Shown here piece by piece: positions 30,671 through 45,000 of a DNA stretch of 45,000 nucleotides. The notes under the pieces were generated by a model. That model was not told where the DNA came from and did not search any database. It worked only from the letters and a program-made list of their open reading frames with translations. The stretch is from Bolinopsis microptera (lineage: Eukaryota; Ctenophora; Tentaculata; Lobata; Bolinopsidae): NCBI RefSeq assembly GCF_026151205.1, contig NC_087075.1, forward strand, positions 5,920,858 through 5,965,857, given 5' to 3'. The translations under genes and the position numbers were made by a program. The number at the start of each line of letters is the position of its first letter. The first letter of the stretch is position 1.

Positions 30671-30966
<296 letters not shown>

Positions 30967-31214: not shown

Positions 31215-32085
31215 GATCTCCTTTTCCTTCTCCTTGTCTCCTTGTTTCATTGTCTCCTTGTCTCCTTGTGTCCTTGTCTCCTTGTGTCCTTGTCTCCTTG
31301 TGTCCTTGTGTCCTTGTGTCCTTGTGTCCTTGTGTCCTTGTGTCCTTGTGTCCTTGTCTCTTTGTCTCCTTGTCTCCTTGTGTCCTTGTCTCCTTGTCTC
31401 CTTGTGTCATTGTCTCCTTGTGTCCTTGTCTCCTTGTCTCCGTGTCTCCTTGTGTCATTGTATCCTTGTGTCCTTGTGTCCTTGTGTCCTTGTGTCCTTG
31501 TGTCCTTGTGTCCTTGTGTCCTTGTGTCCTTGTGTCCTTGTGTCCTTGTGTCCTTGTGTCCTTGTGTCCTTGTCTCCTTGTGTACTTGCCCTGGCCTTGT
31601 CTATTTGTCCTTTTCTCCTTGTCCTTGTCACCTAGCTTGTCTCCTTGTCATTGTCCTTGTTTCATTGTCTTTGTCTCCTTGTCCTTGTCTCCTTGTCTCA
31701 TTGTCTCATTGTCTCCTTGTCTCCTTGTCTCCTTGTCTCCTTGTCTCCTTATCTCCTTGTCTCCTTGTCCTTGTCTCCTTGTCCTTGTCTCCTTTTCCTT
31801 GTCTCTTGTCCTTGTCTCCTTGTCCTTGTCCTTGTCCTTGTCTCCTTGTCCTTGTCTCCTTTTCCTTGTCTCCTTGTCCTTGTCTCCTTGTCCTTGTCTC
31901 CTTGTCCTTGTCTCCTTGTCCTTGGCCTTGTCTCCTTGTCCTTGTCCTTGTCTCCTTGTCCTTGGCCTTGTCTCCTTGTCCTTGTCCTTGTCTCCTTGTC
32001 TTTGTTCTTGTCCTTCTCCTTGTCTTTCTCCTTGTCCTTGTCCTTGTCCTTGTCCTTGTCCTTGTCCTTGTCCTTGTCCTTGTCC
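31215..32085. repeat. TCCTTG-family pyrimidine-rich tandem repeat
   Basis: Mixed CTTGTC, CTTGTG and TCCTTG words grade from a diverse left part into pure (TCCTTG)n near 32030-32085, then directly into (TCCTTC)n. Open frames such as LVSLCPCVLVSL are artefacts of the repeat. Confidence 0.95.
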
Positions 32086-33028
32086 TTCTCCTTCTCCTTC
32101 TCCTTCTCCTTCTCCTTCTCCTTCTCCTTCTCCTTCTCCTTCTCCTTCTCCTTCTCCTTCTCCTTCTCCTTCTCCTTCTCCTTCTCCTTCTCCTTCTCCT
32201 TCTCCTTCTCCTTCTCCTTCTCCTTCTCCTTCTCCTTCTCCTTCTCCTTCTCCTTCTCCTTCTCCTTCTCCTTCTCCTTCTCCTTCTCCTTCTCCTTCTC
32301 CTTCTCCTTCTCCTTCTCCTTCTCCTTCTCCTTCTCCTTCTCCTTCTCCTTCTCCTTCTCCTTCTCCTTCTCCTTCTCCTTCTCCTTCTCCTTCTCCTTC
32401 TCCTTCTCCTTCTCCTTCTCCTTCTCCTTCTCCTTCTCCTTCTCCTTCTCCTTCTCCTTCTCCTTCTCCTTCTCCTTCTCCTTCTCCTTCTCCTTCTCCT
32501 TCTCCTTCTCCTTCTCCTTCTCCTTCTCCTTCTCCTTCTCCTTCTCCTTCTCCTTCTCCTTCTCCTTCTCCTTCTCCTTCTCCTTCTCCTTCTCCTTCTC
32601 CTTCTCCTTCTCCTTCTCCTTCTCCTTCTCCTTCTCCTTCTCCTTCTCCTTCTCCTTCTCCTTCTCCTTCTCCTTCTCCTTCTCCTTCTCCTTCTCCTTC
32701 TCCTTCTCCTTCTCCTTCTCCTTCTCCTTCTCCTTCTCCTTCTCCTTCTCCTTCTCCTTCTCCTTCTCCTTCTCCTTCTCCTTCTCCTTCTCCTTCTCCT
32801 TCTCCTTCTCCTTCTCCTTCTCCTTCTCCTTCTCCTTCTCCTTCTCCTTCTCCTTCTCCTTCTCCTTCTCCTTCTCCTTCTCCTTCTCCTTCTCCTTCTC
32901 CTTCTCCTTCTCCTTCTCCTTCTCCTTCTCCTTCTCCTTCTCCTTCTCCTTCTCCTTCTCCTTCTCCTTCTCCTTCTCCTTCTCCTTCTCCTTCTCCTTC
33001 TCCTTCTCCTTCTCCTTCTCCTTCTCCT
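32086..33028. repeat. (TCCTTC)n tract, about 940 bp
   Basis: Roughly 157 uninterrupted hexamers with only pyrimidines on the plus strand and only purines on the minus strand. Poly-Ser-Pro, Ser-Phe, Leu and Arg frames are artefacts. The absence of interruptions implies recent expansion or strong homogenisation. Confidence 0.98.
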
Positions 33029-33582
33029 TATTACCAACATCTTATCATCGTTGTACAATTTTTGTGGTTGCAAACTTTCAGTTCTCTGGCAACAAGGATT
33101 AAGATAGATCGCTAAATATTATGTCAATGTGTACAGTGTAACCATATATTTCCATATAACATATAGTGAAACAAATGTAATTAACTCAAGATTAAGAAGC
33201 GGTTGTAATTTATCAAAACGCAAATTATTAAAAATCAAAACGCAAATTATCGTCATGACGGCAAAAGATATATCTTTTATTTCCAATTTGCTGCGAAAAT
33301 ATTGGCAGATGTGCAAAAAATCCCAAGCTTTCCTAGAATTCATGTTTTACTAGCCTGTCACGTGACCAAAACGGTTTTTTTTGCTTATAACTCTCCAGGG
33401 AAGCATTTTTACCCTACGTCATGGGGGGCGATTCGGAATTAGCGTCCAAAAATACATCGATTCAGATCAATTTCATACCCAAAGGGCCTTTTCACAAGAA
33501 TTTTCTTAAAATTTGGGCGAGCGATTTAGTATGAGCGCGCCGAGCTATGTCATTTATAATACCTTATAGTTATAATCGCTTA

Positions 33583-35847: not shown

Positions 35848-36990
35848 CTTTTATTTAGATCGATGAAGTATTTTGAAACAAATTAAAACAAGATTTAACT
35901 TAAAATACTTCCAGCGGAACAAATACATTTACCATTTACAATAATGTAAAACTAAAAGATTGTTATACATCAAACAATTTATTTATTTTTTCAACAGAAC
36001 TGCGATCACTAATATGACATTGGGACGCCACAAGTTAACTCCTTAAAATTCCTATCTATTATTTAAGATATTAACCGTGAAAGAATTAAGAAATTCCTCT
36101 AGAGTTTGAAATCTTTCCTTTTCACTGTGTTGTCTGAGCAACTTGTGTCGTCCATTTGTAAATTGCATAGATTTGGATGGTTAAAAAAGTTTAGTTTTAT
36201 TACCCAAGCAGTGCTCAGACTCTGTTCAGTGATTACAACAAATGTTTTCGGTAAGTTTTTATAATTCAGGGTATTCCCGGAATATATTCTATAATTCCCG
36301 CAGTCATTCTGTCTTAGAATTCAGCGAAAGTATGTTTTTGTGAACATAATTATATTAATTTCCATTACAATACTGTGGTTTCATTGTTCAGTATTAAAGA
36401 ACGTAATTTTTTATTCATAATTTACATTGCTAATTATAATGGAAACAATCGAAATTGGCTGGCAATAAATATATTTTTTCAAGTGATCTGTCGCTCGCTT
36501 CATTTCGATATGAACAATTCTATTACAGCAATAATCTGTATTACTATGAAATTATGACAAATAATTTGTCATAATTTCATAAATTTCGATGATCACTCTC
36601 TAGGAAATTAGAACATTTCAGTTTCACTGAACACTGGTAAATAAATAAAATTCTAAATGATTAACTGAGGTTTCTGTCTGATAACTTCCACTCGAATAAT
36701 ACACGTCCGACAAAAACCTTTTTTTAGCGCGCTTTTAGCTACCGTTCACCGAACCCATGACTGCGGAGTGCGGCTTTGTTGAAAAGGTTTGGCCGGTAGA
36801 GGGTCCGCAGTAGTCCTATTTACATCACCTTAGTATTGCTGTACATCCACTACAGAAGTTATCCCGATAACACTCGACCAAAAACCTAAACAGCCTAAGC
36901 TTAACCAACAATAATCAAGTAAGAATGAACTAGACTCTAAAAATGAACTAGACTTTAAAAATGAACTAAACCTTAAAAGCTATGAATTAT
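35848..36990. other. Gene-free stretch with one perfect small hairpin
   Basis: No exon found. 36545-36562 and 36564-36581 form a perfect 18-bp inverted repeat around a single A (TATGAAATTATGACAAAT). Confidence 0.6.
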
Positions 36991-36994
36991 TTGT

Positions 36995-37000
36995 TTTATT
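36995..37000 (-). terminator. Likely polyadenylation signal of the GPCR gene
   Basis: AATAAA on the minus strand, about 210 bases after the GPCR stop codon. Confidence 0.5.
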
Positions 37001-37208
37001 ATTTGTAACCAGACCTTGTTAAAATGTCGCATATAAATTTGAGTTTAATCAATTTAACCACATTTTTTGAATTATGTGAGTTGTTATATGAACAAAGATC
37101 ATAAAATCGAACGGCAAATTTGTGGTCACTGTCAGATCTTCCAATAATGCAGTGGAAGGAATGAAAGAAAACACAGCTTAAAAACAACATGAAAGGAAAC
37201 TTAAACTA

Positions 37209-40200
37209 TCATACAAACTTCTGTTCCTTTCCATTTTGATTTTTATCCGGCACATAATCACAACTCCGTCCATTCTTATTCTTTGAGTTCACCATTTTCT
37301 GATTATTGACATGATGGTCGGAATTGTTTGTCCTGTGTTTCACGGTGGTCGACTTGCCACCTTGACCAGACGCAGAAAAGTTAGCAATGACACGGTAGTA
37401 CACGATGAAGGGCGTCAGTGCTGACTGGAAAAACACGGTGATGTGGAATGAGTTGGAGATGTACATCCAGGCGCGATCTGTTGTCATCTTGCTAAATGAG
37501 GGGAGCTGAAGTAAAGTTAGGAGATTAGTATAACTAAACAGTATTATTGTATCACTAGTGTAATAGTATCATCATATCATATTGAGAATCCTTCTTGAAT
37601 GGTTTCAATGAAATTCATAGCTTCATGAATTAAATTACGCTTGGTGTTAGATCAGTGGCGTAACGTTGCCTGTTGGCGCCCCCCCCCCCCCCCCCCCCGC
37701 CGAAAAGGCGCCCACCTGTTGGCGCCTCCTCCCCTTTTGGTGACCCTCCACCCTCCCTAAAATTGAACAAATTAGGTTTTAGAGGATACGCCGGTAAAAT
37801 CTCTAAAAAAGTGTGTATCTAGAGCAAAACGCGCAGTTTTGCTAATACTTTAGTTAAGTTTTCGAAATTGTCCCACATTCAAACGACGATTTGGCGCCCC
37901 CTGCACAGCGGGGTCAGCGGGGCCCTTAGCTACGCCATTGTGTTAGATATGGATTCTGGTTGGGATCTGGTGACCCAATCAAAACTCAGAATCACTATCA
38001 CGTGTCATCACCTACCCAGTATTCAGATTTATAATTATAAGTATACTACTATGTATTCTGTGTAAAATTATCTTTATCCCGGTTGTTGCGACAAGTGAAC
38101 TTATAACATGCTGTATAAGATGCTAACCTGTTTCAACTCGAATTTCAGCTCCAACTAGTATTTTACCACTCGACCTACCATGGCACACAATTTGACCAAA
38201 AATGTCTCCTCACGACTAAATATTAGAACAGAAACAACTGCAGAAACAACGTGACCTATAAATTGACCACGTGACCTATAAATTGACCACGTGATCTATA
38301 AATTGACCACGTGATCTATAAATTGACCACGTGACCTATAAATTGACCAGGTGATCTAGAAATGAACGACTTGTCTGTAACCACGTACCTGAGCACCGAG
38401 AAGTACCAGAGTGTTAGCTATACAGATAAACCAGGTGTAGCTGTAGAAGATTGTGTAGCTGAGAACTATTATTAACATGGTGCAACTTGCTCGCGTCAGT
38501 GATTTTACCTTGTGGTTATCCACCTTTGTCCACCTGAGCAAAGAATATTGTTACAGGATGAATTTGAAAGTCGGGAATTCTTGATTTGTTTTTTGGGTTT
38601 GTTTCGTTTACAAACAACGCAGGTAAAGCGTAGAAAAAAAGAGAAAAAAACTCACATTATAGCTGCCCGGAGCTTGCTCATGTTGGAACACTTGTTTAAC
38701 TGCACCGAAGTTGATAACACCAACTGGTTTTGTTTCTCACTGAAAATATAAAATAGGTATTTAAGGTATCTGATCATTTCTCACACATACAATAACATAC
38801 AATAAGATAAATAATTGTAAGGTAACCGAGACAGAATTATGAACAGATAGCTGAACATTGACTTACGTGATGTATTGGTAGCGTTTATACATAATTTTGA
38901 AGAGAACAGCGAAGGAAAGGAAAACTGATACGATGGTGGGTATGAGAAGGGGCACATCTACCAAGATGAAGTAGGGGAAGAAGATCTGCAGTCTGTTGTT
39001 TTGGATGTCACCGGGGGATATTCCTAGCAACTGTAATGATATTTTTATTACGTTTTATCTGAACGAGCGTTTATTAAACTGACATTCCGATCAATATAAA
39101 TAGGTATTTTTATGTTCTTGGGTATTTTACCCTATTTTAACAGATCAGCTTTAACTGACATTCTGATCAGCCTGTTATCAGCCTGTTATCAGCCTGATCA
39201 GCCTGTTATCACCAATCATAACGCTGTTTTAGAGTGTTCCTTCAAGGACAGTGGACATGACACAAATTACTTCAACTGCACAGTAGCAGACTTGTAACTC
39301 TACTATCAGACTTCCAGGTGCCTTTTCAGTAAAGTTGGACAGATTTTATCATCATGAATATCGGTCACCTATAACTGACCAACAGAGAAAAATATCCTAA
39401 AAGAGGGCATTTAGAGGGGCGTCTAGCCCTAAATGAAGCTTCGCCTTCGGCGGGCTTTGCCCCAACGGGTCGAGGCATTTACATTTTAGTCAGCTACTTT
39501 CATGTTTACCTGGGGACCCCAGGCTATAATGTTCATAAACATCCGCCGAATCGAGATTCGGTGGAATGACAGGCTGAGTGCCGCCCAGTAACTTTCATGT
39601 ATACCAGAGCATAATTAGCTTCAGTTGCATTTAAATTCTACCCTATGGGGACTTGTCAAATTGAAGAAAGATGACATGGTCGGCTAGCACGGCGAGAGAA
39701 GTAAGCACATAGCCAGTTCTTGGGCATTTGGAGCTGGGCCCCGGAATTTTTTTGCGTTTTTGCTTGGCCACATTAAAATCTACAATAACTTTTAGCAATT
39801 AATATTTTAAATTAGCTTTCTGATTTCTCCGCGCCGACAACCCACAAGTAAAACACAGCCAGCTGGCACCATTTAATTATCACAAATTATGATAATATGT
39901 CCCTTCCTTCCCAATTTTCGAAAACCTGCCCTTTATGTAGTGAGGTAAGAGGAGCTAGATATTTATTATATTTTTTAAAGTGAGGTAACCTATAATAACT
40001 CAATCGCAACTAGAAAACTCAAATATTAGTACCAACGGTTGAATTTGAAAGTAATCGATCTTATATAGCTAATCAGCTAACTTTACCCCACTTGATTGGA
40101 ACGAAGCCAAAGATGAATGTTACTGGGGAACTAAGATCCTGTTACCAAGTTAAATAAATTAACCACTACTCAGCCGTGGTAAGATGCCTATTATTTACTC

Positions 40201-43200
40201 TGATACCTGAACAATGCCTGAATAATACCTGAATAATGCTCCAAGAACACATCAGCTCCCTGTATAATACCTGAATAATGCTCCAAGAACACATCAGCTC
40301 CCTGGTGTATAATACCTGAATAATGCTCCAAGAACACATCAGCTCCCTGGTGTATAATACCTGAATAATGCTCCAAGAACACATCAGCTCCCTGGTGTAT
40401 AATACCTGAATAATGCTCCAAGAACACATCAGCTCCCTGTATAATACCTGAATAATGCTCCAAGAACACATCAGCTCCCTGGTGTATAATACCTGAATAA
40501 TGCTCCAAGAACACATCAGCTCCCTGTATAATACCTGAATAATGCTCCAAGAACACATCAGCTCCCTGGTGTATAATACCTGAATAATGCTCCAAGAACA
40601 CATCAGCTCCCTGGTGTATAATACCTGAATAATGCTCCAAGAACACATCAGCTCCCTGTATAATACCTGAATAATGCTCCAAGAACACATCAGCTCCCTG
40701 TATAATACCTGAATAATACTCCAAGAACACATCAGCTCCCTGTATAATACCTGAATAATGCTCCAAGAACACATCAGCTCCCTGGTGTATAATACCTGAA
40801 TAATGCTCCAAGAACACATCAGCTCCCTGGTGTATAATACCTGAATAATGCTCCAAGAACACATCAGCTCCCTGTATAATACCTGAATAATGCTCCAAGA
40901 ACACATCAGCTCCCTGTATAATACCTGAATAATGCTCCAAGAACACATCAGCTCCCTGGTGTATAATACCTGAATAATGCTCCAAGAACACATCAGCTCC
41001 CTGTATAATACCTGAATAATACTCCAAGAACACATCAGCTCCCTGTATAATACCTGAATAATGCTCCAAGAACACATCAGCTCCCTATTGTATAATACCT
41101 GAATAATGCTCCAAGAACACATCAGCTCCCTGTATAATACCTGAATAATGCTCCAAGAACACATCAGCTCCCTGTATAATACCTGAATAATGCTCCAAGA
41201 ACACATCAGCTCCCTGGTGTATAATACCTGAATAATGCTCCAAGAACACATCAGCTCCCTGTATAATACCTGAATAATGCTCCAAGAACACATCAGCTCC
41301 CTGTATGATACCTGAATAATGCTCCAAGAACACATCAGCTCCCTGTATAATACCTGAATAATGCTCCAAGAACACATCAGCTCCCTGGTGTATAATACCT
41401 GAATAATGCTCCAAGAACACATCAGCTCCCTGGTGTATAATACCTGAATAATGCTCCAAGAACACATCAGCTCCCTGGTGTATAATACCTGAATAATGCT
41501 CCAAGAACACATCAGCTCCCTGTATAATACCTGAATAATGCTCCAAGAACACATCAGCTCCCTATTGTATAATACCTGAATAATGCTCCAAGAACACATC
41601 AGCTCCCTGTATAATACCTGAATAATGCTCCAAGAACACATCAGCTCCCTGGTGTATAATACCTGAATAATGCTCCAAGAACACATCAGCTCCCTGGTGT
41701 ATAATACCTGAATAATGCTCCAAGAACACATCAGCTCCCTGTATAATACCTGAATAATGCTCCAAGAACACATCAGCTCCCTGTATAATACCTGAATAAT
41801 GCTCCAAGAACACATCAGCTCCCTGGTGTATAATACCTGAATAATGCTCCAAGAACACATCAGCTCCCTGGTGTATAATACCTGAATAATGCTCCAAGAA
41901 CACATCAGCTCCCTGGTGTATAATACCTGAATAATGCTCCAAGAACACATCAGCTCCCTGGTGTATAATACCTGAATAATGCTCCAAGAACACATCAGCT
42001 CCCTGTATGATACCTGAATAATGCTCCAAGAACACATCAGCTCCCTGGTGTATAATACCTGAATAATGCTCCAAGAACACATCAGCTCCCTGGTGTATAA
42101 TACCTGAATAATGCTCCAAGAACACATCAGCTCCCTGGTGTATAATACCTGAATAATGCTCCAAGAACACATCAGCTCCCTGGTGTATAATACCTGAATA
42201 ATGCTCCAAGAACACATCAGCTCCCTGTATGATACCTGAATAATGCTCCAAGAACACATCAGCTCCCTGTATAATACCTGAATAATGCTCCAAGAACACA
42301 TCAGCTCCCTGTATAATACCTGAATAATGCTCCAAGAACACATCAGCTCCCTGGTGTATAATACCTGAATAATGCTCCAAGAACACATCAGCTCCCTGTA
42401 TAATACCTGAATAATGCTCCAAGAACACATCAGCTCCCTGGTGTATAATACCTGAATAATGCTCCAAGAACACATCAGCTCCCTGGTGTACTGTTCCACG
42501 TAAGGAATCCCTGCTAGAAAGGGCAATGCCTGTATACCTGACAAAGTAATGAGATGAACTTAAATAACTGCATTCTTCAATTCTCCAGTCTCCACTACCA
42601 CTACAATCATGTAAGGCAAACTCGATTAACTCTAAATTTAAAGTGCATATCGCTGGGACAGATTAAGGTTGACTTTAAGAGATTATTAAACCCTCCTACC
42701 TAAAGCAAACGCCCATATGATGTAGATACAGTATTTGTATACTGAGTAATAGAACGCCCGCCCGTACGTCAGAGGGAAGTAGATGGCGTGAGTTCGGTCA
42801 ATACCTTGGGGGTGGTTTATTTTTAATTATAATTGCAAGTATGTGTAAGTGTTGGTAATATTTACTATCTACAACTACTGCTAGTAGCTTGTAAATATTA
42901 CAATCTACACTCTACACTCTACACGTATAGTAGTGGTACATAATAGAAGCTTCCTAGTAGGAATCCTACAATGTGGACTGGTATGTTAAACATTACTCAA
43001 TTAGTAATATATACTAATTGAGTAATATATACTAATTGAGTAATATATACTAATTGAGTAATATATACTAATTGAGTAATATATACTAATTGAGTAATAT
43101 ATACTAATTGAGTAATATATACTAATTGAGTAATATATACTAATTGAGTAATATATACTATTGAGTAATATATACTAATTAAGTAATATATACTAATTAA

Positions 43201-44655
43201 GTAATATATACTAATTGAATAATATATACTAATTGAGTAATATATACTAATTGAGTAATATATACTAACTGAGTAGGAGAACTGTAAGACTTGTGACCCG
43301 GATCAACACGTTGTAAGCGTACCCGCTCACCACACACATCGACCTGAACAAAAGTAGTTATAATAGAAGTTTTCATGTCTAGTCCCCACATTTTCAATTT
43401 TAGGAGAATTTTCAAGAATATCTATTCATCGATGATTTTTATCGAGTCATTGATCCGGTTTGAAGGATGTTTAAATTTAATTTTTCGAAATTAATGATTA
43501 AAAAATCTGTTTATTACTTGTGGAAAGTGTTGTTCCGGTATCCAGCGTGGGACTCAGATATTCTGTCTCTTATATCTTCTGGTACACTGGTGTTTCCAGA
43601 GACGTCCGCTGGTCTACCGATCTGTAACGGTGTTACAGTGTTACAGTGAGTAATTCAGCGTTACAGGCAGAGTTACAGTGTTACAGTGAGTAATTCAGCG
43701 TTACAGGCAGAGTTACAGTGTTACAGTGAGTAATTCAGCGTTACAGGCAGAGTTACATTGTTACAGTCAGTGTTACAGCCAGTGTTACAGTGTTACAGTC
43801 AGTGTTACAGTGTTACAGCCATTGTCACAGTGTTACAGTCAGTGTTTTAGTTATTGTTACAGTGTTACAGTGTTACAGTGAGTGTTACAGTGAGTGTTAC
43901 AGTGAGTGTTACAGTGATTATTGTAAGCTAATTACCGGCAGTCGGCACACGCACACTTCAAAGGAAGAAAGAGGCAGTGAGCACAGCTGTTATTAAACAA
44001 TGCCAGTATGGCTTGCAAAATAAATAAAACCCTCTAAAGTCTAAATAGTTTTTGAATCCGTGACAAAACACTAGACGGCATTTCTTTATGTTTCAGGCAA
44101 TTATGTTTTCAAAAGTGGAATATGATAGATATATTTGTAAAACGCGTTGAAATCTCCTAATGACGGTCTCAAACCCGAAACCTCAACTGTGCCTTATATT
44201 TCTGTTGTATCCCCCCTGCACTCGAGGTAAGTAAAGATATATTTAAAGCGGGACTTACTGTGATATAGTAAATCACCCAGGGCATCGCAAATATTCCCAT
44301 CAAAACGTCACTTATCGCTGAAATGGGGATCCTCAATAAGAACTTAACTGAAACTTTAATTTACACCGCCAAATGTTGCCTAGCTTGCTAAATGCTAGTC
44401 TATTGCTCGCTTCTCTCACGTACAGGGATTGGCGAGCCAAGTAACGCCAAATGTTGCTCAGTAAAATCATTTAATGATCTGTTAGTGGGCAGAATCTGTT
44501 ACAGTAGGCAGAATTTTACAACGATTACTTTGAAGGTGCTATCGGGATTTGGAGGGGGGAGAAACTCCTCAGCAATATTACCTATATTAAAGTAGAGATT
44601 CACGGTTTTGGGTGTTATGTTGAAGAACCTGTATTCGTTCTGCTTCAGAATTTTC
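37209..44655 (-). CDS. Class A (rhodopsin-like) GPCR, TM2 to C terminus, ten exons
   Basis: Exons on the minus strand in reading order: 44655-44582, 44347-44259, 43621-43518, 43343-43270, 42804-42700, 42537-42452, 39030-38867, 38739-38656, 38533-38389, 37505-37209 (stop TGA). Every junction is AG/GT and all phases agree, giving 406 residues. TM2 has the class A pattern ISAISDVLMGIFAMP (D38 as 2.50). TM3 runs from C92 to SIDRTHAIYFPLTYG, with exactly 25 residues between C92 and R117, the class A spacing of C3.25 and R3.50. TM4 is about 130-160. C171 (RELMC) is the loop-2 cysteine. TM5 is about 192-225 and TM6 about 273-305, without the usual CWxP. TM7 ends ALTPFIVYY, a changed NPxxY. The tail is about 65 residues, basic and Asn-rich. 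Loop 1 is about 27 residues longer than usual. The N terminus and TM1 lie upstream of the window. The ligand is unknown. Two introns carry arrays that start at their 5' splice sites. Confidence 0.9.
37653..37940. mobile_element. hAT-type MITE in a GPCR intron
   Basis: The ends are CAGTGGCGTAACG and, inverted, CAATGGCGTAGCTAAGG, close to the common hAT terminal CAGTGGCGTAGCTA. The perfect 8-bp target duplication TGTTAGAT lies at 37645-37652 and 37941-37948. It contains a run of about 18 C at 37681-37698 and several GGCGCC words. It lies in the intron between exons 38389 and 37505. Confidence 0.92.
38249..38352. repeat. 20-bp tandem repeat with CACGTG
   Basis: Five to six units of CACGTGA(C/T)CTATAAATTGAC. 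CACGTG is a perfect E-box palindrome. It lies in a GPCR intron, starting about 40 bases after the 5' splice site of the TM6 exon. Confidence 0.92.
39506..39591. mobile_element. 86-bp TTACCTGG MITE (family 3), intronic copy
   Basis: Starts TTACCTGGGGACCCCAGG and ends GTGCCGCCCAGTAA. The perfect 9-bp target duplication CTTTCATGT lies at 39497-39505 and 39592-39600. It lies in the long intron after the loop-2 exon of the GPCR. Confidence 0.93.
40215..42500 (-). repeat. 42/45-bp array of amplified exon end plus 5' splice site (about 52 units)
   Basis: On the minus strand each unit reads (ACC)AGGGAGCTGATGTG, TTCTTGGAGCATTATTCAG, then GTATTATAC. The first unit contains the last codons of the loop-2 exon (RELMCSWSIIQ) and its CAG|GTATTA donor at 42452/42451; the rest fill the intron. 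Units are 42 or 45 bp, so the exon frame stays open for 792 codons, ending at 40166. Rare variants (CTATTG linker at 41086 and 41566, GTATGATACC at 41295, 42007 and 42229, AATACTCC at 40715 and 41023) point to block duplications. Confidence 0.93.
42985..43275 (-). repeat. 18-bp array starting at the TM3-exon 5' splice site (about 16 units)
   Basis: On the minus strand the exon end and donor TACTCA|GTTAGTATATAT form the first unit. Later units read TACTCAATTAGTATATAT: the G of the donor GT has become A, so they no longer look like splice donors. Confidence 0.88.
43625..43920. repeat. GTTACAGT-rich tandem repeat in a GPCR intron
   Basis: A 40-bp unit (TTACAGTGTTACAGTGAG, TAATTCAGCG, TTACAGGCAGAG) is repeated three times, followed by shorter GTTACAGTGA units. 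It begins right next to the acceptor of the exon starting at 43621 (minus strand). Confidence 0.9.
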
Positions 44656-45000
44656 CTGAAAATAAATCTATTAAACTAAGTTTCAAAACTTAACACCGCT
44701 CGTATAACTCTTACATGTTTAGTGTTTACTGTGCACGCCCTTCATTATTATCACACTGAAGCCTATCTTTTGCAGCTCAAAGGTGTAAATTTATAAAACA
44801 GCGCATGTGAAAACTTTTGAAACTTGGTAGACTACAAATTATAAAACCTCAACACTAACTGATTTTTATAGTAAATATTACGCTTGAGGAGATTTAGTCG
44901 GGGAAAAAATCGTGTCTTTAAAGAACACGATGAAACAGTTTTACCATAAATTATGGAAGAATGTCAAGCGGCATAATTTGGATCTGGACCAATAATACAC
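44656..45000. other. Intron of the GPCR gene upstream of the IL1 exon
   Basis: No TM1 exon is visible on the minus strand here, so it must lie beyond the window. No repeat recognised. Confidence 0.5.

Follow-up and report, generated by a model that had tools for sequence, protein, structure and literature searches.

The window analysed here is a stretch of 45,000 nucleotides of Bolinopsis microptera DNA (NC_087075.1, 5,920,858 to 5,965,857); unless a locus is named, positions refer to the window, and a slash in a sequence marks an exon boundary. A receptor gene lies on the minus strand. A protein search identifies it as LOC134814003 of B. microptera, represented by a 183-aa record, and also returns a 380-aa protein of Mnemiopsis leidyi. 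Our model has 10 exons and encodes 396 residues and a stop, with no internal stop and with GT-AG introns. The most 5′ exon recognised in the window (44582..44655, KILKQNEYRFFNITPKTVNLYFNI) precedes TM2 and is followed by the TM2 exon (44259..44317), the ECL1 exon (43518..43621), the TM3 exon (43270..43343, donor TCA/GTTAGT), the exon for the end of TM3 and TM4 (42700..42804, IDRTHAIYFPLTYG...), and the TM4/ECL2 exon (42452..42537). Downstream lie the TM5 exon (38867..39030, LLGISPGDIQ..., acceptor ttacag/TTG), which is placed by the gene model and the Mnemiopsis alignment, the ICL3 exon (38656..38739), the TM6 exon (38389..38533), and the exon for TM7 and the C-terminus with the stop codon (37209..37505).

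The model is 73% identical to the Mnemiopsis protein (280/383 columns; the query contained a few mistyped ECL1 residues). Pfam PF00001 (7tm_1) scores 34.5 bits against a gathering cut-off of 30.5, with a query that contained a few wrong ECL1 residues and was one residue short, lacking the Gln at the start of the ECL2 exon. These typing errors leave the ECL2/TM5 junction unaffected. A frameshift in the ECL1 exon was considered and is ruled out, as the frame is intact in the 10-exon model. The model contains the two cysteines of the Rhodopsin class, in MCVVSGY at the top of TM3 and in RELMCSW of loop 2; we take their roles from general knowledge, and the disulfide between them is predicted. The structure prediction for the Mnemiopsis ortholog has a mean pLDDT of 34 and is too poor to use. 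No close paralog of the receptor appears among the matches listed, the eleven outside this gene being 21-34% identical. Rfam matches nothing within window positions 36500-45000.

The array at the end of the ECL2 exon

The TM4/ECL2 exon is 86 bp long, holds the loop-2 cysteine, and ends ...YTRELMCSWSIIQ at donor CAG/GTATTA. A first-pass annotation of this DNA had assigned the exon, its donor, and its frame to loop 2 of a GPCR, and both the 10-exon model and the junction of the Mnemiopsis ortholog confirm the assignment. On the minus strand, the exon end reads TAC ACC AGG GAG CTG ATG TGT TCT TGG AGC ATT ATT CAG/GTATTA, and this sequence repeats into the intron. Parsed at the donor, the array contains 53 CAG/GTAT[T/C]A sites on the minus strand, with first intron bases from 42451 to 40206. 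Between the 53 sites are 51 tandem units (40229..42451; site parse and TRF), 27 of 45 bp and 24 of 42 bp, each ending in CAG followed by GT in the exon frame, and one 22-bp end remnant (40207..40228), which precedes the donor-like site 53 (intron start 40206).

The 45-bp unit consists of six intron bases, GTATTA, and the 39-bp exon end, and the 42-bp form lacks one codon. This make-up bears out the earlier view that the array derives from the exon end and the intron start, with six intron bases per unit in place of the nine then given. The array keeps the frame because its unit lengths are only 42 and 45 bp; with just two lengths, the in-frame spacing does not amount to 52 independent facts. 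Donors 1-52 share one frame, so that the earlier figure of about 52 donors is the exact count of the in-frame set. The accompanying statement that every unit keeps the frame holds through donor 52 and fails at the very end, where donor 53 loses the frame owing to the 22-bp remnant. The open frame from 42529 runs for 787 codons.

The whole array is made of five unit sequences and the remnant. The 39-bp exon end is exactly repeated in 25 of the 51 units, and TRF reports a 45-bp consensus in 52 copies with 95% matches and a score of 3971; this exact recurrence and this score exclude a chance origin. With head-to-tail, near-identical units in the range of about 10-100 bp, the array is a minisatellite. 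In a genome-wide DNA search, the matches listed, at least 30, are all at the LOC134814003 locus. The array has no higher-order repeat structure: its longest repeated run, five units, is matched by 498 of 500 shuffles.

According to the assembly description in PMC10232365, the B. microptera genome was assembled with wtdbg, gap-closed, haplotig-purged, and Illumina-polished, and Iso-Seq was used in the annotation. Given wtdbg and Illumina polishing, the copy number and the purity of the units are less certain than the array itself. That the array is an assembly artefact, or that its copy number is greatly wrong, is scarcely credible. Although wtdbg with short-read polishing can homogenise units, the interspersed 42- and 45-bp variants are unexpected from a collapsed or looped consensus, and the array passes into non-repeat sequence at both ends. 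Because of these borders, the array is very probably real, and 52 is to be taken as about 50.

Donor strength and the conserved junction

The predicted U1 pairing energy of CAG/GTATTA is -7.2 kcal/mol, which is the third strongest of the gene's nine donors (range, -1.4 to -9.1), and the variant CAG/GTATCA has an equal score. By this measure, the 52 in-frame donors are U1-competent. Therefore, donor strength cannot tell the copies apart, and position can. The exon is 86 nt long with donor 1, 131 nt with donor 2, 173 nt with donor 3, and 2309 nt with donor 52, while the gene's other internal exons are 59-164 nt. RNA hairpins that would hide the later donors were considered and rejected: in the first 460 nt, the mean unpaired probability is 0.23-0.49 at the first nine donors and 0.37 overall. 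The intron with donor 1 (39031..42451) spans 3421 bp. Intron-proximal choice, by which the last donors would win and loop 2 would gain up to 741 residues, would give the shortest intron, 1198 bp with donor 52, but would call for an exon far outside the size range of the gene, in a position where the ortholog has one module. We give it a very slight chance.

At the ECL2/TM5 junction, the sequence of the Mnemiopsis ortholog is VEQYTRELMCSWSIIQ/LLG, which has a single module and no gap, and the two species agree. Therefore, the ECL2 exon is real and donor 1 yields the conserved product. From this comparison of sequences, the one-module product is likely ancestral. At the protein level, the array modules are absent from the ortholog.

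The 183-aa database record covers the 3′ part of the gene only, starting at a Met in the TM5 exon, directly after the array intron. For an intact, expressed gene that uses donor 1, upstream annotation with ECL2 joined to TM5 would be expected. Low expression, poor splicing, or junction reads falling in the repeat would explain the short record, and the last of these, if it is the cause, would favour multi-donor use. The record is also what a harmful array would leave, if splicing across it failed and the locus were going inactive or yielding a 3′ fragment only. This is improbable, however, since the 10 exons found are intact and the model resembles the ortholog along its length.

If many donors were used, loop 2 would form a ladder with steps of 14-15 residues, each module adding a Cys and a Trp, and could act as a ligand or adhesion loop. 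Such a ladder would suit the 52 U1-competent donors in one frame, the lack of a stop for 787 codons, and the short database model, which we would expect if junction reads could not be placed uniquely. The substitutions in the exon-derived part of the units point the same way. Pooled from this array and from an array in a GMP synthase gene described below, three of 4, 5, or 6 substitution types are synonymous, for which the chance is 0.04, 0.09, or 0.15, respectively; the count of 4 leaves out an Asn codon change in two units of the receptor array and a Pro/His change at an ambiguous boundary in GMP synthase, and the count of 6 includes both. This synonymous excess is at most a weak hint: translation could have caused it, but so could gene conversion from the exon, or it may be due to luck. 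Among the database proteins listed within length limits of about 92-294, 178-567, and 433-1379 aa, none has array modules, which speaks against the ladder, but only weakly, as gene annotation often fails on repeats of this kind. Together with the arrays of other genes described below, it leaves many-donor use with little likelihood.

Donor-seeded arrays in the same gene and elsewhere

A second donor-seeded array, with an 18-bp unit, is located in LOC134814003 itself (42994..43275, minus strand). It starts at the TM3 exon junction CTCA/GTTAGT (43270/43269) and shares 6 exon bases with the next unit. Among the 15 copies listed, only the first, the genuine donor, has the GT, and the other 14 lack it. 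Two duplications across a donor thus seem to have occurred in LOC134814003, one of which gave no additional donors, and this weakens the reading of the ECL2 array as a source of variable loops. The second array also bears on the idea that the repeated sites form a U1 snRNP platform, which would aid splicing commitment or block premature polyadenylation without use of the sites as donors. Many U1-pairing sites lie within one intron, as such a platform would have them, and nothing specific speaks against it beyond the lack of repeated donors in the 18-bp array; we regard it as highly unlikely.

Further arrays are seen in the window. One, with a unit of about 20 bp (43630-43916), ends 8 bp before the acceptor of the ECL1 exon and leaves the acceptor uncopied; the minus strand of this array contains no TTACAG. 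Two others are long hexamer arrays, TCTCCT in about 207 copies (31760-33029) and GGAGAC in about 49 copies (30675-30966).

The in-frame design of the ECL2 array is seen again in an intron of a GMP synthase gene (L047:2217-2986, corresponding to C4:14002217-14002986, plus strand). The exon reads ...RIYPVLLPVRTVGVQ/GTAAATCCT and is followed by in-frame units of 54 bp with 11 donors, ten CAG/GTAAAT and one AAG/GTAAAT. Each unit combines the end of the exon with 4-9 bases from the start of the intron, and 50 exon bases match unit 1. The next exon joins donor 1 as ...TVGVQ/GDGRTYSY, and human GMP synthase reads ...TVGVQGDCRSYSY at the same junction with no gap (2vxo, E 6.7e-9). A second, near-identical copy of the gene about 173 kb away has about 22 donors versus 11, as counted from match coordinates only. 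The exon pieces of the two copies are 98-100% identical in DNA, and the array is present in both protein-level matches (C4:14002216-14003130 and C4:13827911-13829415); the second copy may have arisen by segment duplication or be a haplotype that escaped purging. On C12, a third, diverged DNA match (74-90% identity in pieces) has repeated pieces in the same interval, and there is no protein-level match there among the matches listed. Repeated 18-residue inserts at a conserved point of GMP synthase have no evident use. Therefore, the in-frame anatomy is not confined to ligand loops.

We sampled 20 stretches of 10 kb (200 kb) from the same chromosome as the window. They contain 53 minisatellites with units of 15-100 bp, which make up 13.9% of the bases, and 13 of these have at least 10 copies. 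Three of the 13 (L047, L040, and L034), chosen for donor-like units, were inspected by eye, and two (L047 and L040) begin at donors of recognisable genes; the remaining ten may hold more donor cases or none. Eleven further loci (L019-L029), not all of them convincing exons, were selected by similarity to the receptor. Donor-seeded cases were named by similarity to known proteins, as a coding-score scan is too noisy for counting. Beyond LOC134814003, three arrays are seeded at donors of recognisable genes: the GMP synthase array and those of two further GPCRs, L040 and L024.

In L040, a GPCR exon end is followed by 16 donors AGC/GTAAG(T/A) at a spacing of 20-21 bp (L040:5663-5339, minus strand), with 4 exon bases shared with the next unit and a long GACA-type microsatellite after the array. 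The exon piece matches Pfam 7tm_1 with E 3.8e-5 and 23.7 bits, which is under the whole-protein cut-off of 30.5, and more receptor exons lie downstream. From donor 1, the reading frame continues into the next receptor exon; donors 2, 3, and 4, the three tested, carry stops. The C-terminal tail of the same receptor has an apparently coding 39-bp minisatellite with STVSTVQPRTSRV repeats (L040:4107-4342, minus strand).

L024 is a GPR52-like receptor (E 9.4e-11). Its TM4 exon ends in a donor-seeded array (L024:1713-2376, plus strand) with a 40-bp unit and 11 donors CAG/GTTAGA; 12 exon bases are shared, and there is a stop in the read-through frame. Donor arrays are thus positioned near loop 2 in three receptors. 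To judge from the shared exon bases, the L040 array (4) and the TM3 array (6) are weaker parallels to the ECL2 array than those of GMP synthase (50) and L024 (12). The remaining array inspected, with about 107 copies of a 54-bp unit (L034:5759-1, minus strand), begins a few bases downstream of an apparent donor, ATTG/GTAAGT, and the exon has a Pfam match below the cut-off (E 0.015).

Counting the 13 arrays of the sample and five of the window, 18 arrays have at least 10 copies, and four of them have a recognised donor (ECL2, 43275-42994, L040, and L047); L024 is not part of this set. With the ECL2 array left out, the count is 3 of 17, and the probability of at least three is 0.16, 0.03, 0.005, or 0.0016 for 40-bp founder units and an assumed donor density of 1 per 500, 1000, 2000, or 3000 bp, respectively. 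These figures no more than suggest that arrays are enriched at donors. Among the arrays looked at, none that copies an acceptor came to notice; the array of L025 ends shortly before an exon-like frame.

Origin of the array and choice among its donors

The first-pass annotation had offered a length-variable ligand loop as a meaning of the array. The same anatomy in GMP synthase and the donor arrays of two other GPCR genes, whose extra donors shift the frame or bring stops and would break the protein, argue against this meaning and against the multi-donor ladder. A length-variable loop is possible, yet it is not the best explanation. Arrays recur at sites for which a variable loop would be meaningless, and the feature common to the comparators is a working first donor: in the donor arrays, donor 1 leaves an ancestral-type protein intact. 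The ECL2 array is a member of this recurrent set of donor-seeded minisatellites in B. microptera.

Therefore, the ECL2 array is probably a minisatellite that arose, in a repeat-rich genome, by tandem duplication across the donor and persists as a neutral feature, the first donor usually winning. We infer the mutational route, the dominance of the first donor, and the neutrality as follows. Tandem duplication would first have copied a stretch of 42-45 bp spanning the exon/intron junction of a rhodopsin-class receptor gene, and slippage or unequal exchange would later have extended the copies into the intron. Splicing would mostly commit to donor 1, which is the first to be transcribed and gives an 86-nt exon, within the range of 59-164 nt for the gene, and the other 51 in-frame donors would leave with the intron. 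The product would have a one-module loop 2, as in the ortholog. If donor 2 or donor 3 were used now and then, the loop would gain 15 or 29 residues with no frameshift. As the unit length is divisible by three, leakage to later donors would be cheap, which would help the array to persist; the same property accounts for frame compatibility here and in GMP synthase, but is absent from L040 and L024, where the unit length is not divisible by three. Against the first-donor reading, nothing in the donor sequence favours donor 1, because CAG/GTATTA and CAG/GTATCA score the same. A related reading, that ctenophores recurrently form donor-nucleated minisatellites and that the in-frame cases, the receptor and GMP synthase, lead to measurable use of later donors and to graded ladders of protein length, here in loop 2, is unlikely, though deserving of some weight.

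If the choice of AG at the 3′ splice site scans from the branch point, the repeats of an array at an acceptor would enter the mRNA, and such an array would be removed by selection; an array at a donor would not. An asymmetry between donors and acceptors in the survival of arrays is thus a prediction.

To our knowledge, most work on how one of several competing 5′ splice sites is chosen has used artificial constructs with two or three sites. B. microptera supplies genes with 11 to 52 nearly identical donors, some in frame and some not, and these genes encode receptors as well as a metabolic enzyme. As the donors are nearly identical, position is the main difference between them. A readout of donor usage would separate exon definition and first-come commitment from intron-proximal choice, and could reveal a tendency, if there is one, of minisatellites in this lineage to begin at donors. 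The donor-seeded set is in this respect a natural experiment on 5′ splice site choice, and natural arrays of identical donors are of wider interest.

Known systems resemble parts of this arrangement. Exon 3 of DRD4 contains a 48-bp VNTR of coding repeats that varies by allele. There too the length of a GPCR loop is tied to an in-frame minisatellite, but the repeats of the ctenophore gene follow a donor, and variation would come from splicing; the ortholog and the gene model need one module only. The arrays of alternative exons in Dscam likewise provide many alternatives from one gene. In contrast, the units here are nearly identical, are not separated by introns, with only GTATTA (6 bp) between a donor and the next exon-like core, and would change length only.

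Judged by the titles and abstract openings of the papers listed, no donor-seeded minisatellite was found in the literature, although a precedent may well be in print, and the papers combining ctenophores and minisatellites are apparently unrelated. PMC11797021, on the Mnemiopsis genome, uses the word minisatellite 0 times in its main text. In the account given in PMC12783039, earthworm metallothionein genes have minisatellites in the first intron; these are similarly long and intronic and differ between gene copies with like exons, but in that account they are not described as copies of an exon end and donor. Introns gained when an AGGT-bearing segment is tandemly duplicated (Hellsten et al. 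2011, as cited in PMC3443670) are similar in that, as summarised there, the duplicated segment multiplies splice sites and leaves the spliced product unchanged, and differ in that one duplication creates a new intron, whereas here about 51 copies lengthen an existing one. AGGT is present in the duplicated unit of the ECL2 array, as CAG/GT ends each of the 51 units. The acceptor is a separate site and not a second AGGT copy: the TM5 exon starts at 39030, about 1.2 kb outside the array.
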